From an uncultured Eubacteriales bacterium (GTDB taxonomy: Bacteria; Bacillota; Clostridia; Christensenellales; Aristaeellaceae), in the NCBI GenBank assembly GCA_902761755.1, contig CACWLP010000003.1, forward strand, positions 113,664 to 177,663: DNA of 64,000 bases. The letters are read 5' to 3'. A program made the position numbers and the translations under genes. Below, piece by piece: positions 33,289 to 64,000 of the stretch (position 1 is the stretch's first letter; each line of letters starts with the position of its first letter). The notes beneath the pieces were generated by a model. That model did not search any database. It was not told where the DNA came from and saw only the letters and a program-made list of their open reading frames with translations.

Positions 33289-34476
33289 ATGAAACGATTC
33301 TGGATCTGCCTGGCGGTATTGCTGGCGCTGCTGAGCCTGTCCGCCCTGGCCGAGGAAGCCGCCGATATCACGCCCCAGTGCGGCATCCGGGTATCGCATT
33401 ACGGCAAAGACAAAGAAAAGATGCTGGATAACGGCACCATGACCATGTGGTATCAGCCGGAGGCCAACGCCTGGGTGGAGGTGACCTGCCCGGAGGGATC
33501 GCCTGCCCAGGGCGTGTTCATCCGCTGGGGGAAAAAGCCCATCGACACGGTGATCCAGGTGCCGGGAGAGGACAAGGAATGGCAGACGGCGCTGGAGCAC
33601 GAAGGCATGTATTTCAACGAATACATTGCTTTTGACGAGCCGCTGGAAAAATTCCGCATCCGGCCCCTGGCGAAGCAGGATCAATTCGCCATCATCAAGC
33701 TGCAGGTGCTGGGGGAGGGCGAGGTGCCGGACTGGGTGGAGCGCTGGCAGCCCTTCGAGGGCAAGGCGGACATGATGGTATTGGTGGCCCACGCCGACGA
33801 CGAACTGCTCTATATGGGCGGCGTGATCCCCTATTACAGCGGGCAGATGGGCAAGAAAGTGATCGTGGTGTACATCGCCCAGATGAACGGGTTTCGGAAT
33901 GTGGAATTGCTGGACGGGCTGTGGCACTGCGGGGTGCGTTCTTACCCGGAAATGCCCACCAGCAAATTTAAGGATCAATGGTGCACGGGGCTGAAAAAAT
34001 GCCTGAGCATCTGGAATGAAGAAAAGCTGCTGTCCTACGTGACGGAGCTGATCCGCAAATACCAGCCCGACGTGATCGTGACCCACGACGTGAACGGCGA
34101 ATACGGCCACGGGGCGCACAAGGCCTGCTCCTATGCGGTGCAGAAGTGCATCCTGAAAGCCGCAGATCCATCCCAATACCCGGATTCCGCGGCGCAGTAC
34201 GGCGCCTGGCAGGTGAAGAAGGCGTACCTGCATCTCTACGAAAGCGAGCTGGGCATGCTGGATTTCGATTGGCGGCAGCCCCTGGAGGCTTTCGGCGGCA
34301 AGACCGCCTTTGAGATCACCGACGAGGCGTTCAAGATGCACCGCAGCCAGGCGGCCTCCGGCAAGTACAAGGTGGAGGACTTTGGAAAATACGACAATTC
34401 CCTGTTCGGGCTGTTCTATTCCGCCGTGGGGAACGATACGCCCGGAGTGAACGATATGTTTGAGCACCTTGAGTAA
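33289..34476 (+). CDS. Secreted PIG-L family deacetylase
   Basis: Predicted zinc-dependent N-deacetylase (LmbE/PIG-L family). The signal peptide (MKRFWICLAVLLALLSLSALAE) is followed by a beta-rich domain of about 130 residues without a recognised family, then the PIG-L domain: zinc motif AHADDE (167-172), MGGVIPYYS, a later TCAC-coded histidine motif THDVNGEYGHGAHK (about 262-275) supplying the remaining ligands. PIG-L proteins deacetylate N-acetylated sugars, and export suggests an envelope or external glycan substrate; that part is inference. The ATG follows GAGGAGAGC. The gene ends just before a multi-hairpin repeat. Confidence 0.82.
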   Translation: MKRFWICLAVLLALLSLSALAEEAADITPQCGIRVSHYGKDKEKMLDNGTMTMWYQPEANAWVEVTCPEGSPAQGVFIRWGKKPIDTVIQVPGEDKEWQTALEHEGMYFNEYIAFDEPLEKFRIRPLAKQDQFAIIKLQVLGEGEVPDWVERWQPFEGKADMMVLVAHADDELLYMGGVIPYYSGQMGKKVIVVYIAQMNGFRNVELLDGLWHCGVRSYPEMPTSKFKDQWCTGLKKCLSIWNEEKLLSYVTELIRKYQPDVIVTHDVNGEYGHGAHKACSYAVQKCILKAADPSQYPDSAAQYGAWQVKKAYLHLYESELGMLDFDWRQPLEAFGGKTAFEITDEAFKMHRSQAASGKYKVEDFGKYDNSLFGLFYSAVGNDTPGVNDMFEHLE

Positions 34477-34490
34477 AAAACGCATCAAAA

Positions 34491-34519
34491 AACGCCGTAC
34501 GCGAAGTACGGCGTTTTAA
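34491..34519 (-). terminator. Terminator facing the epimerase gene (H0)
   Basis: The stem AACGCCGTAC/GTACGGCGTT is followed on the minus strand by six T residues (34485-34490 as A on plus), so it is a strong terminator for transcripts that come from the epimerase and cross the whole element. On the plus strand only four T residues follow. Confidence 0.65.
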
Positions 34520-34765
34520 ATTGTTGACAAAATGCTTTGGGGAAGTATGAAGGGGCCTAGCCCCTTCATCAACAATCCGCAGGACCGGGTTTGCCGGTCC
34601 GAGGAGCGGTCCTTGACCGCTTCCTATATCAATTTATGACCGTAAAAAGAGCATTTCCGGGCATACTTGCTCGGAAATGCCTTTTTACAATAAATTGATG
34701 TGTCGAAGGAAAGGACGGTTTTCCGGCCTTTCCTTCACAGGGTGTCGACAAAGTCGACACCCTGA

Positions 34766-34794
34766 AACGCCGTACGCGAAGTACGGCGTTTTTT
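34766..34794 (+). terminator. Terminator facing the PIG-L gene (H7)
   Basis: Same stem as H0, here followed by TTTTTT on the plus strand. A transcript from the PIG-L gene would cross H0-H6 and end here, with the whole element as its 3' UTR. Confidence 0.65.
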
Positions 34795-34800
34795 GATGCA

Positions 34801-42113: not shown

Positions 42114-44711
42114 TTACAGCTTCATTGCTTTTTCTTTGAGCACAAACAGCTTGTTCAGCGCGTCGATGGGGGTCATGGCCATGACGTCCAGGGAACGGAT
42201 TTCCTCCACGAATTCCGTTTTCTGGTATTCCATCAGGTCCACCTGCTCGTTTTTCTTTTTGTGGCCGGCCCCCAGGATGTTCTGCCCGATGGTGACGTTG
42301 TTCACCTGGTTGACCTCCAGCCGGGCCTGGATCTCCTGGGCCCGGGCCACCACGGGCCGGGGCACCCCGGCCAGATGGGCCACGTAGACGCCGAAGGATT
42401 TGTCCGCGCCGCCGGGGACGATCTTGCGCAGGAAGATCACTTCCTCGCCGTGCTCCTTGACGGACACGCAGAAATTGTTGACCCCCTCCAGGTGGCCTTC
42501 CAATTCGGAAAGCTCGTGGTAATGGGTGGCGAACAGGGTTTTGGCGCCGGATTTTTTCTTGTCCGCCAGGTATTCCACCGCCGCCCAGGCGATGGAGAGG
42601 CCGTCGAAAGTGGAGGTGCCCCGGCCGATCTCGTCCAGGATCACCAGGGACCTGTCCGTGGCGTTGCGCAGGATATAGGCCATTTCGCTCATTTCCACCA
42701 TGAAGGTGCTTTGCCCCGTGGCCAGATCGTCGGAAGCGCCCACCCGGGTGAATACCCCGTCCACCAGGCAGATGCTCGCCTCCCGGGCGGGGACGAAGGA
42801 GCCCATGTGGGCCATCAGCGTGATCAGGGCCACCTGGCGCATGTAGGTGCTTTTGCCCGCCATGTTGGGGCCGGTGATGATCTGCATGCGGTGGGTGTCG
42901 CCGTCCATGTGGGTGTCGTTGGGCACGAAGGCCATGTCCGGCATGGAGGCTTCCACCACGGGGTGGCGGCCGTCTTTGATGTCGATGACCCCGTCCTGGG
43001 TGATCTGCGGGCGCACGTAATGCCGCAGCATGGCCACCCGGGCCAGGGACAAAAGGGCGTCCAGAGTCTTGTATGCCAGGGCGGTGGACTGCAGCCGGCC
43101 CATATTGTCGCTGATTTGGGCGCGGATGTCCTCGAACAGCTGCAATTCCAGCTTGGCCGCCTGCTCCTGGGCGCCCACCAGCTTGCTTTCGATGGCGCGC
43201 AGCTCGTCGGTGGTGAAGCGCTCGCTGTTGGTGAGGGTCTGCCGCCGCTGATAGCGCAGGGGCACCAGATCGTAATTGGATTTGGTGACCTCGATGTAAT
43301 AGCCGAACACCCGGTTGTACTGGATGCGCAGGTTCTTGATGCCGGTTTCTTCGCGCTCTTTGGCCTCCAGGTCCATCAGCCACTGCTTGCCCTCGGTGGA
43401 GGCCCGGCGCAGCTCGTCCAGCTGTTCGCTGTAGCCCGCACGGATGATATTCCCGTCGGAGAGGAGCAGCGGCGCGTCCGGGGAAATGCCCCGCAGCAGC
43501 AGGTCGTTCAGCTCCGGCAGGGGGTCCAGCAGATCCCCGAGGAAGGAAAGGGCGTCGCCCGGCACGCTGCCCAGCAGGGACAGCACCTGAGGCGCCCGCT
43601 CCAGGGAACGCTGGAGGGAGAGGCAGTCCCGGGCGTTCAGGGTATGGTAAGATACTTTGGAGAGCAGCCGTTCCATGTCGTAGACGTGGGCGAGCTGATC
43701 CCGCAGGTTCTGGGCCAATACCGGCTGGCCGAACAGGGCTTCCACGGCGGCGAGGCGGGCCTCGATCTTGGCCTTGGAGATCAGCGGCCGTTCCACCCAG
43801 GAGCGCAGCAGCCGCCCGCCCATGGCGGTGACGGTCTCGTCCAGGATGGACAGGAGGGACCCTTTCGCGCTGCGGCCCCGGATGGTTTCGGTCAATTCCA
43901 GGTTCCGCCGCGTGGCGCTGTCCAGGGGCATCAGATCGCCCTTTTCCTGGATGCGCAGGCGGGAGATATGCTGGAGGGAATTTTTCTGGGTTTCATTGAG
44001 ATACCGCATCAGCGCCCCGGCGGCGCAGGCGGCGGCCGAAAGGGACTGGTCCAGCCCCAGGGCGATCAGGGAACTGACGCCGAAATGGGAAAGCAGCGTT
44101 TCCCGGGCGTTCTGGCTCTGGTAGGCGGCGGCGCCGTAGTTCCGGCAGACGAGCGAAGTGCAGCTCTGCACGGCGTCCGGGCTGTTGGTGATGATTTCTC
44201 CGGGGCTCAGGGAATCCAGGGCGGATTTGATCGCCTGGGGTGAATTGTCCGTCTGCTGAACGAAAAACTCGCCGGTGGATACGTCGCAGGCGGCGACGCC
44301 GCAGCGGCGGCCCGCCACGCAGACGGAGCAGAGGAAATTATTGCGCTTTTCCCCGATGACGGCGGAATCGGTGAGGGTGCCGGCGGAAACGATGCGGATC
44401 ACGTCCCGGTCCACCAGGCCCTTGGCCAGGGCCGGATCCTGCATCTGCTCGCCGATGGCCACCCGGTAGCCCTTTTCCACCAGCCGGGCCACGTAGGCGT
44501 CCACCGCGTGGAAGGGCACGCCGCACATGGGGGCGCGCTCCTGCAATCCGCAGTCCTTGCCCGTCAGGGTCAGTTCCAGCTCACGGCTGGCGGTGAGGGC
44601 GTCCTCGAAAAACATTTCGTAAAAATCGCCCACGCGGAAGAACAGCAGCGTATCCGGGTTCTGGGCCTTCAGCTGCATGTATTGCTGCATCATGGGGGAA
44701 AGGGTAGCCAT
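42114..44711 (-). CDS. mutS: DNA mismatch repair protein MutS
   Basis: Recognises mismatches. The 865 residues include the mismatch-binding domain with GDFYEMF (Phe-x-Glu motif, about residue 30), the clamp region, the ATPase with Walker A GPNMAGKSTYMRQ (about 615), DELATGQSTFMVEMSE-like signature, EIGRGTSTFDG and the final HHE-type C terminus. It starts at ATG 44711 preceded by AAAGGAG. On its 5' side lies a copy of the multi-hairpin element, which separates it from ylbF. Confidence 0.96.
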   Translation of the reverse strand: MATLSPMMQQYMQLKAQNPDTLLFFRVGDFYEMFFEDALTASRELELTLTGKDCGLQERAPMCGVPFHAVDAYVARLVEKGYRVAIGEQMQDPALAKGLVDRDVIRIVSAGTLTDSAVIGEKRNNFLCSVCVAGRRCGVAACDVSTGEFFVQQTDNSPQAIKSALDSLSPGEIITNSPDAVQSCTSLVCRNYGAAAYQSQNARETLLSHFGVSSLIALGLDQSLSAAACAAGALMRYLNETQKNSLQHISRLRIQEKGDLMPLDSATRRNLELTETIRGRSAKGSLLSILDETVTAMGGRLLRSWVERPLISKAKIEARLAAVEALFGQPVLAQNLRDQLAHVYDMERLLSKVSYHTLNARDCLSLQRSLERAPQVLSLLGSVPGDALSFLGDLLDPLPELNDLLLRGISPDAPLLLSDGNIIRAGYSEQLDELRRASTEGKQWLMDLEAKEREETGIKNLRIQYNRVFGYYIEVTKSNYDLVPLRYQRRQTLTNSERFTTDELRAIESKLVGAQEQAAKLELQLFEDIRAQISDNMGRLQSTALAYKTLDALLSLARVAMLRHYVRPQITQDGVIDIKDGRHPVVEASMPDMAFVPNDTHMDGDTHRMQIITGPNMAGKSTYMRQVALITLMAHMGSFVPAREASICLVDGVFTRVGASDDLATGQSTFMVEMSEMAYILRNATDRSLVILDEIGRGTSTFDGLSIAWAAVEYLADKKKSGAKTLFATHYHELSELEGHLEGVNNFCVSVKEHGEEVIFLRKIVPGGADKSFGVYVAHLAGVPRPVVARAQEIQARLEVNQVNNVTIGQNILGAGHKKKNEQVDLMEYQKTEFVEEIRSLDVMAMTPIDALNKLFVLKEKAMKL

Positions 44712-44740: not shown

Positions 44741-44968
44741 ACTGATCTGCCAGATGCGTCGAAGGCTGGCTAAGCCTTCGACTGAAATCCGCAGCGGCGG
44801 CATGTACGCCGCGAGGAGCAGTCAGAATGACTGCTTCCTCTATCAATTCCTGGCCGTAAAATGAGCGTTTTCGCTTGCGAAAATGCCATTTTACAAGGAA
44901 TTGATGGATCGAATGAAAGGACGATTGATCGGCCTTTCATTCGCAGGGGTGCAGCTTTAGCTGCACCC
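44741..44968. repeat. Multi-hairpin intergenic element, copy 2
   Basis: This gap between mutS and ylbF repeats the layout of the 34484-34797 element: H1 GTCGAAGGCT/AGCCTTCGAC (44758-44782), H2 GCGGCG/CGCCGC (44794-44812), H3 AGGAGCAGTC/GACTGCTTCCT (44814-44839), H4 with arms TATCAATTCCTGG and GGAATTGATG (44841-44906), H5 GAATGAAAGG/CCTTTCATTC (44911-44942) and H6 GGGTGCAGC/GCTGCACCC (44947-44968). Conserved islands include AATCCGCAG, GAGGAGC, TATCAATT, CCGTAAAA, AAATGCC, TTTTACAA and GAAAGGACG. The stop codon of ylbF lies in the H6 loop. H7 is not present; its place is taken by ylbF coding sequence. Confidence 0.85.
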
Positions 44969-45352
44969 GGAGCAGGCGGAGCAGTTGCCGGAGCAGCCGC
45001 CCTGGCTGCCGCCGGGATTCAGCACGGAGGACAGCTCCGCGTTCACCTGGGCCATCATGTCGGAAAAGGCCTTGCGGGATTTCTGCAGGGCCTGGTAAAG
45101 GGGCTGCGCCTTGATCTGCTCCAGCACGGTTTCCAGTTCCCGGGAAAGCTCGCCGATCTTATCGAAATCCGGCTCCTTGCGCAGCGTGGCGTCCTCCACC
45201 TGGCGGTGGATCTCGTCGTACTGGGCGAAGAGGCCCTTGAGGAGCTCGTCCTGGCCCGCGGCGTCCTCGGTGGCCCGCATGGAAATGTATTCGGGGGACA
45301 GGGAAATGACCCGGGCCAGTTCCTTGGCCTTATCGGTGACCTGCTGACTCAT
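44957..45352 (-). CDS. YlbF/YmcA (RicA/RicF) family protein with Cys-rich tail
   Basis: Members of this family form the RicA-RicF-RicT complex with RicT (ricT, 7528-8544). The 131-residue protein is helical (about 1-110) and ends GGSQGGCSGNCSACSGCS with four cysteines (120, 124, 127, 130), likely [4Fe-4S] ligands, as for the cysteine tails known in RicA and RicF. Only one family member is seen in the window, so whether it plays the A or F part is unclear. In Bacillus ymcA also lies between miaB and mutS. The last three codons (Gly-Cys-Ser) are the 5' arm of hairpin H6 of the repeat that follows. Confidence 0.85.
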   Translation of the reverse strand: MSQQVTDKAKELARVISLSPEYISMRATEDAAGQDELLKGLFAQYDEIHRQVEDATLRKEPDFDKIGELSRELETVLEQIKAQPLYQALQKSRKAFSDMMAQVNAELSSVLNPGGSQGGCSGNCSACSGCS

Positions 45353-63874: not shown

Positions 63875-64000
63875 GAAATGCCCGGCATAGACCCAGGCAT
63901 TTCAGGGTGTCGACAAAGTCGACACCCTGCCATCGAAAGCCAGCGAAAGCAGTCTTTCGATGGGAACATCAATTTCTTGTAAAATGGCAGTTCCGGCATA
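63875..64000. repeat. Multi-hairpin intergenic element, copy 3 (cut by window end)
   Basis: Read on the minus strand this repeats the right half of the other two copies: H4 right arm CATTTTACAAGAAATTGATG (63967-63988), H5 CCATCGAAAG/CTTTCGATGG (63930-63963), H6 CAGGGTGTCGAC/GTCGACACCCTG (63903-63929, identical to copy 1) and H7 GAAATGCC/GGCATTTC (63875-63903). H7 differs from copy 1 H7 by paired changes. The H4 apex and H1-H3 lie beyond the window. Confidence 0.8.

Follow-up and report, generated by a model that had tools for sequence, protein, structure and literature searches.

Duplicated terminator hairpins flank a geneless multi-hairpin repeat that is very probably derived from the IS1182 family

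A multi-hairpin repeat found in intergenic gaps of an uncultured Eubacteriales bacterium is very probably a non-autonomous, MITE-like derivative of the IS1182 family, inserted at terminator cruciforms and joined at the 5' feet of the hairpin. We assign it to this family because its ends match those of IS1182 transposons and because both are bordered by duplications of the same kind. The element measures about 250 bp and has no transposase gene: the longest frames within the copy at 34518-34764 encode 35 aa, and frames of 39, 63 and 78 aa extend beyond its right end. The original prediction had allowed for a mobile non-coding element, an option borne out by the ends, the target-site duplications and an exact empty site; its remark that no named family fits is superseded, since ends and duplications place the element among IS1182-family derivatives. 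What was an unexplained covarying repeat becomes a defined mobile family with a likely parent, and poses a puzzle of its own: throughout a genus, a geneless transposon has retained an interior that folds and covaries.

The window, that is, the whole stretch of 64 kb analysed here, is the final part of contig C3 in an incomplete genome (G000; 2.2 Mb in 46 contigs, 73% complete). Three gaps in the window had been predicted to share one order of hairpins. Gaps 1 (34484-34797) and 2 (44741-44968) do so, with fold z scores of -14.7 and -10.8, respectively, against shuffled sequence, and they have the hairpin order, the unpaired islands and the paired stem changes in common, just as predicted. Gap 3 (63875-64000) departs from the scheme, as it is inverted and truncated at the contig end. 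Gap 1 is a complete copy. Behind a PIG-L-domain gene (33289-34476) the host terminator hairpin appears for the first time (34490-34517); this left copy is an exact 28-nt direct repeat of 34765-34792. Adjoining this duplication is the left end of the element (34518-34535, plus strand, as are all features up to the right end), which comparison with other copies identifies as a diverged form of CAGACTGTCGACAAAGTGC. The fold then predicts hairpin H2 (ATGAAGGGGC/GCCCCTTCAT, 34547-34569), where other copies have the stems ATGAAGG or TCGAAGG, and it is followed by the unpaired island TCCGCAG (34576-34582), a hairpin (34582-34600) with stem sequences quite different between copies, and the hairpin GAGGAGC..GCTTCCT (34601-34625), the covarying inner stem of which is helix 1 of the covariation analysis. 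Helices 2 and 3 are the covarying stems of a long hairpin with a GRCC bulge, ATCAATTT..AAATTGATG (34628-34700). After a further predicted hairpin, GAAGGAAAGG/CCTTTCCTTC (34705-34736), comes the right end (34738-34764), a 27-nt palindrome that is an inverted relative of the left end and recurs identically at 63903-63929. The right copy of the terminator hairpin (34765-34792), then a T tract, completes the arrangement.

The second copy of the body (44758-44968, plus strand) fills most of gap 2, between a ylbF-like gene (44957-45352, minus strand), whose frame end is overlapped by the last hairpin, and mutS (42114-44711, minus strand). The covariance model described below matches it at C3:158451-158569. 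It has no recognisable left end, and no duplicated hairpin was detected around it, the best direct repeat being 9 nt. This copy separates the ylbF-like gene from mutS, the start of which is just downstream on the minus strand; lying directly before that start, it may therefore affect mutS expression. Gap 3 consists of a terminator hairpin (63875-63902) and the right end and part of the body of a third copy (63903-64000, minus strand, thus opposite to gap 1), which is truncated because the window stops at the contig end. The end of contig C4 (locus L015) carries the left part of a copy and a hairpin that differs from that of gap 3 at two positions. Since the terminator hairpins are nearly identical and the two parts appear to make up one element, this copy is probably where contigs C3 and C4 meet.

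The outermost hairpins, H1 and H7, are two copies of the host terminator and lie outside the element. Indeed, complete copies are flanked by two copies of one hairpin, and this hairpin varies from site to site. The two forms of H7, AACGCC/GGCGTT and AATGCC/GGCATT, had been read as one covarying helix; they turn out to be different host terminators, each duplicated by insertion. Our copy set comprised 87 distinct copies (84 unique cores, 82 of them aligned), among which 73 had both flanks and could be searched for duplications with a direct-repeat score cut-off of 14. Direct repeats across the flanks were found in 35/73, versus 0/73 when the left flank was shuffled once (highest score, 11); the other 38, gap 2 included, had no clear duplication. 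The left repeat lies 52-64 nt upstream of the core in 33 of these 35 copies, and the right repeat 55-76 nt past it in 30. For the hairpin and polarity analyses we used the 33 repeats scoring 16 or more, which are 17-44 nt long. In 24/33 the centre of the repeat lies no more than 2 nt from the best local hairpin, and the median hairpin score is 12 versus 6 for shuffled sequence; scores of 8-10, found at some targets, occur in the shuffled controls as well (maximum, 10). Duplication length is weakly correlated with hairpin span (0.29). Many of the repeats are preceded by A tracts and followed by T tracts, like intrinsic terminators, and relative to the element their polarity is the same in 8 cases, opposite in 12 and undecided in 13.

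One filled site can be set beside its exact empty counterpart. At locus L179 (G014 record), CGCATCCGGGAAGGATGCGC stands on either side of the copy. In the sister species G007 the flanks share a 20-base overlap consisting of that hairpin alone, and the 99 bases that end with the left hairpin copy are identical in both. For gap 1 itself the comparison used G009, where the ortholog of the upstream gene has 80% protein identity; behind it there is a single terminator hairpin, of different sequence, and the element is absent. A second empty-site query, with L131, was not clean, other sequence being present between the matched flanks.

The IS1182 family was first suggested by its palindromic targets and was then tested. 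IS catalogues give long, variable direct repeats for this family. IS1202, which makes long duplications, was set aside as a candidate parent once IS1182 fitted. At E <= 0.001, the transposase domain PF13751 was detected in 11/29 genomes of the genus, at 13 places (over the cut-off in 9/29), compared with 29/29 for the element itself; none was detected in the source genome, which is 73% complete. Both ends were found at only two of these 13 loci, L231 in G020 and L232 in G043, with the ends CAGACCATCGGCAAAGTCCC and CAGACCATCAACAAAGTCCC. The duplications bordering these two transposons are perfect palindromes, 22 and 33 nt long, and their proteins score 358 and 431 bits against the IS1182 model NF033551 of NCBIfam (cut-off, 270), the L231 frame being shorter at its start. 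The terminal inverted repeat of the element, CAGACTGTCGACAAAGTCCC at L179, matches both CAGACCATCGGCAAAGTCCC and CAGACCATCAACAAAGTCCC; the left end in gap 1 has diverged. No hairpin duplication was seen at the other 11 transposase loci, several of which are fragments or stop at contig ends; one of these 11, L234, showed a single matching right end. A scan of viral sequences for the transposase confirmed nothing.

Moreover, eight of eight IS1182 elements on plasmids (L268-L275) have hairpin duplications of 18-30 nt and similar ends. Their hosts are Bacillus (two), Brevibacillus, Alkalihalophilus, Sutcliffiella, Salinivibrio, Aminobacter and Rhizobium; they were picked by host, hence non-randomly, with their flanks still unseen, from 40 listed among 1813 records, and they do not amount to a family survey because every one was retrieved through its similarity to the L232 protein. 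The IS1182 insertion sequences (these eight with L231 and L232) thus resemble the element in their ends, CAG..TG/CA....AAA, and in the duplication of a whole terminator-like hairpin. They differ from it in being about 1.5 kb long with a DDE transposase, whereas the element is geneless and has a conserved multi-hairpin body.

We infer that insertion involves mobilisation in trans, a cruciform and a particular strand chemistry. An IS1182 transposase supplied in trans would bind the CAGACTGTCGACAAAG-like ends of the element; the target would be a palindrome in cruciform extrusion, in the typical case a gene's intrinsic terminator; and joining at the 5' feet of the hairpin would duplicate the whole stem-loop. 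The place of insertion, the duplications and their hairpin nature, the exact empty site, the shared ends and the like behaviour of the two IS1182 elements of the genus and the eight from plasmids are seen directly in the sequences. In the cruciform model proposed in PMC5678879, the stem-loop is lost when strands join at its 3' feet, whereas joining at the 5' feet (pathway b) would duplicate it. The present data fit the 5'-feet route as it is given there, and so supply natural cases, with duplication of the whole hairpin, for one pathway of that model. IS1272 is described in PMC4923244 as entering hairpins, terminators among them, and deleting part of them. Like our element, IS1272/TnSha1 belongs to the IS1182 family and inserts, with no preference for sequence, into stem-loops, of which several are confirmed terminators; unlike it, according to PMC4923244 and PMC5678879, it removes the stem-loop and makes no duplication. 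Stem-loop loss of this type is not what the duplicated copies show: the hairpin is kept and doubled at the L179/G007 site and in 35/73 copies. According to work cited in these two papers, some IS1182 members target palindromes, and PMC9208149 has IS1182 over-represented between convergent genes. For the relative ISPse1, 4-bp repeats are given in PMC3281130. Our searches of the open-licence literature turned up neither a duplication of whole terminators by IS1182 nor a multi-hairpin IS1182 MITE. Insertion into terminators that are rebuilt in the process may explain the dozens of copies.

The inner body was compared across copies in a MAFFT alignment of the core, made on sequence, with the structure taken from the same alignment; it replaced a regular-expression parse of the long hairpin that had covered 61/84 cores. 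Across the 39 pairs in 82 distinct cores, pairing holds in 98.2% of cells, versus 83.4% after shuffling, and 23/39 pairs are changed on both sides, versus 15.2 in the shuffles. The covariation score is 0.392 against 0.122, and none of 500 shuffles scored as high; with partners shifted by 1-3 columns, 40-50% of cells pair. Near-invariant unpaired islands and paired stem changes, proposed from a few gaps, accordingly extend over the 82 copies, and the comparison with shuffles gives strong covariation. TCCGCAG is preserved in 78 of the cores, the GRCC bulge in 79 and GCTTCC in 80. The shuffles and column slides leave the relatedness of the copies in place, and kinship is evident: the nearest neighbour of a core came from the same genome in 22/45 cases (shuffled mean, 4.0), a count lowered because some genomes carry two labels; for this test 52/82 rows were assigned to genomes by hand and 45 were used. 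Mobility alone does not explain so conserved an interior. Selection on structure, as originally proposed, finds support here for the inner body, with the proviso that arm copying or hairpin exchange may contribute.

How far such copying could account for the body without selection can be judged from the changes themselves. If one palindrome arm were rewritten from the other by template switching, or whole hairpins were exchanged, paired stem changes would arise directly. On a tree of the copies, which may recombine, double changes from one Watson-Crick pair to another number 116, versus 64 one-sided departures (28 to G-U, 11 to A-C, 25 other), and one pair in the GAGGAGC hairpin is AU in 41 cores and GC in 40, without an intermediate. 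Yet arm copying should erase asymmetric bulges, and GRCC is retained in 79/82 cores, as is GCTTCC opposite GAGGAGC in 80/82; the near-invariant islands lie outside the stems altogether. We consider copying without selection possible but somewhat unlikely as the whole account; selection on the folded strand and arm copying or hairpin exchange may both contribute.

Doubtful, in our judgement, is a structured non-coding RNA family, in which the body would be transcribed and act as RNA, mobility being secondary. The near-invariant islands and bulges and the covarying stems would suit it, as would the strand bias: at paired positions of the plus strand, G-U outnumbers A-C by 59 to 14 cells (32 to 12 with one pair removed) and by 28 to 11 among changes inferred on the tree, and the plus strand folds better in 62/84 cores, the minus strand in 21/84. 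However, the wobble excess would fit single-stranded DNA too, the copies on the tree may recombine, and the terminators occur in either polarity, which makes steady co-transcription unlikely. The Rfam comparison that had been suggested gave no match in the window at the gathering score; at E values up to 1 there were five weak matches, all far below their gathering scores.

We think it most likely that the body, folded as a single strand of DNA or RNA, works for the element itself, either in its transposition or in its maintenance, and that it is not a fixed part of host transcripts; a steady role in such transcripts is disfavoured because the element has no fixed polarity to the terminator. 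A stronger form of this is that a transposon aimed at terminators carries the body as a functional, folded cargo, either RNA or single-stranded DNA, under genus-wide selection with its own bulges and islands; the family would then be more than a decayed IS, namely a structured nucleic acid that is mobile. We put this forward tentatively, as a prospect that deserves weight though we would not expect it to hold. If it were true, an element that inserts into terminators and restores them would be able to spread at little cost, perhaps with tuned read-through.

REP/BIME elements are short palindromes that are not known for target-site duplication. Such an element, linked to a RAYT transposase, had been offered as an option and would be repeated, palindromic and intergenic like the present one, but it is highly improbable because the present element has IS1182-like terminal repeats and a duplicated target on either side. 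Equally improbable is that the flanking hairpins are part of the element and were equalised by gene conversion without any insertion into terminators. Both copies are indeed palindromic and keep a fixed distance to the core, but they vary by site, agree with the sister species' empty site at the same locus and are duplicated in the same way around IS1182 transposons. The BOX and RUP elements are set apart by description, their ends and targets differing from those of our element. They are nevertheless small dispersed intergenic repeats like it, in Streptococcus pneumoniae (PMC3049150). IS1182 MITEs are already in print: MITEPye1 of Paracoccus yeei (PMC11578231) is likewise non-autonomous, intergenic and foldable, with IS1182-like terminal repeats. 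It is 159 bp long and 96-100% identical between copies, with 1-3 per chromosome and 4-bp direct repeats (PMC11578231), and the present family differs in its duplications (hairpins of 17-44 nt), copy number (2 to 66 matches per genome), diverged covarying body and genus-wide range.

A covariance model built on the 127-position core, the kind of search proposed originally for further copies, found 37 matches in the source genome and matches in 29/29 genomes of the genus, so that the first ground named for rejecting the original observation, a lack of further copies, does not apply; high per-genome counts may be low estimates because 119 candidates were scored per genome. With stricter filters, none of the 150 other genomes in an order-wide sample of 151 matched, eight of those listed being from other genera of the same family. 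BLAST gave 64 matching places in the source genome, self-hits of palindromes included, with at least 17 repeat places at a contig start or end. It matched 24/24 other genus members searched and, outside the genus, gave one weak match (G040, 6e-5). An exact core pattern occurs in at least 111 stretches of named records; among the matches listed, the titles are of metagenome-assembled Clostridia, Clostridiales or uncultured Christensenellaceae bacteria, and the stated habitats are ruminant rumen, reticulum, colon or rectum. The element was not found in the phage and plasmid DNA collections. Searching IMG/VR contigs with one exact pattern returned a single core (IMGVR_UViG_3300021387_000748; L228:4197-4322).

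Longer elements with matching ends were sought in the fetched loci, where four somewhat longer copies had a repeat-to-repeat spacing of 357-471; three matches at 1992-6574 in L217 had unconvincing ends. Extra hairpin blocks are present within copies L004 and L005 (in both, downstream of the core match), L011 and L086; the H2 loop, for instance, can contain AAAAATATGCC..GGCATATTTTT. They look like the outcome of hairpin insertion or exchange. L079 holds a tandem pair of element cores (1216-1633) with an 83-nt exact direct repeat at a spacing of 335. Inserts between L106 and L110 and in L101, at first taken for the element, proved to be another repeat. This other intergenic inverted repeat (L106, about 2733-2883; L101, about 2760-2890; L235, about 1220-1400) consists of short units that resemble GAGTTGAGA or GTGGAGAGTGAAG and have complementary arms; where two close species are compared at one such place, only one of them has it. 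In L006 (1539-1647 and 1706-2048), a copy of the element lies about 60 nt upstream of the tmRNA gene identified by ARAGORN.
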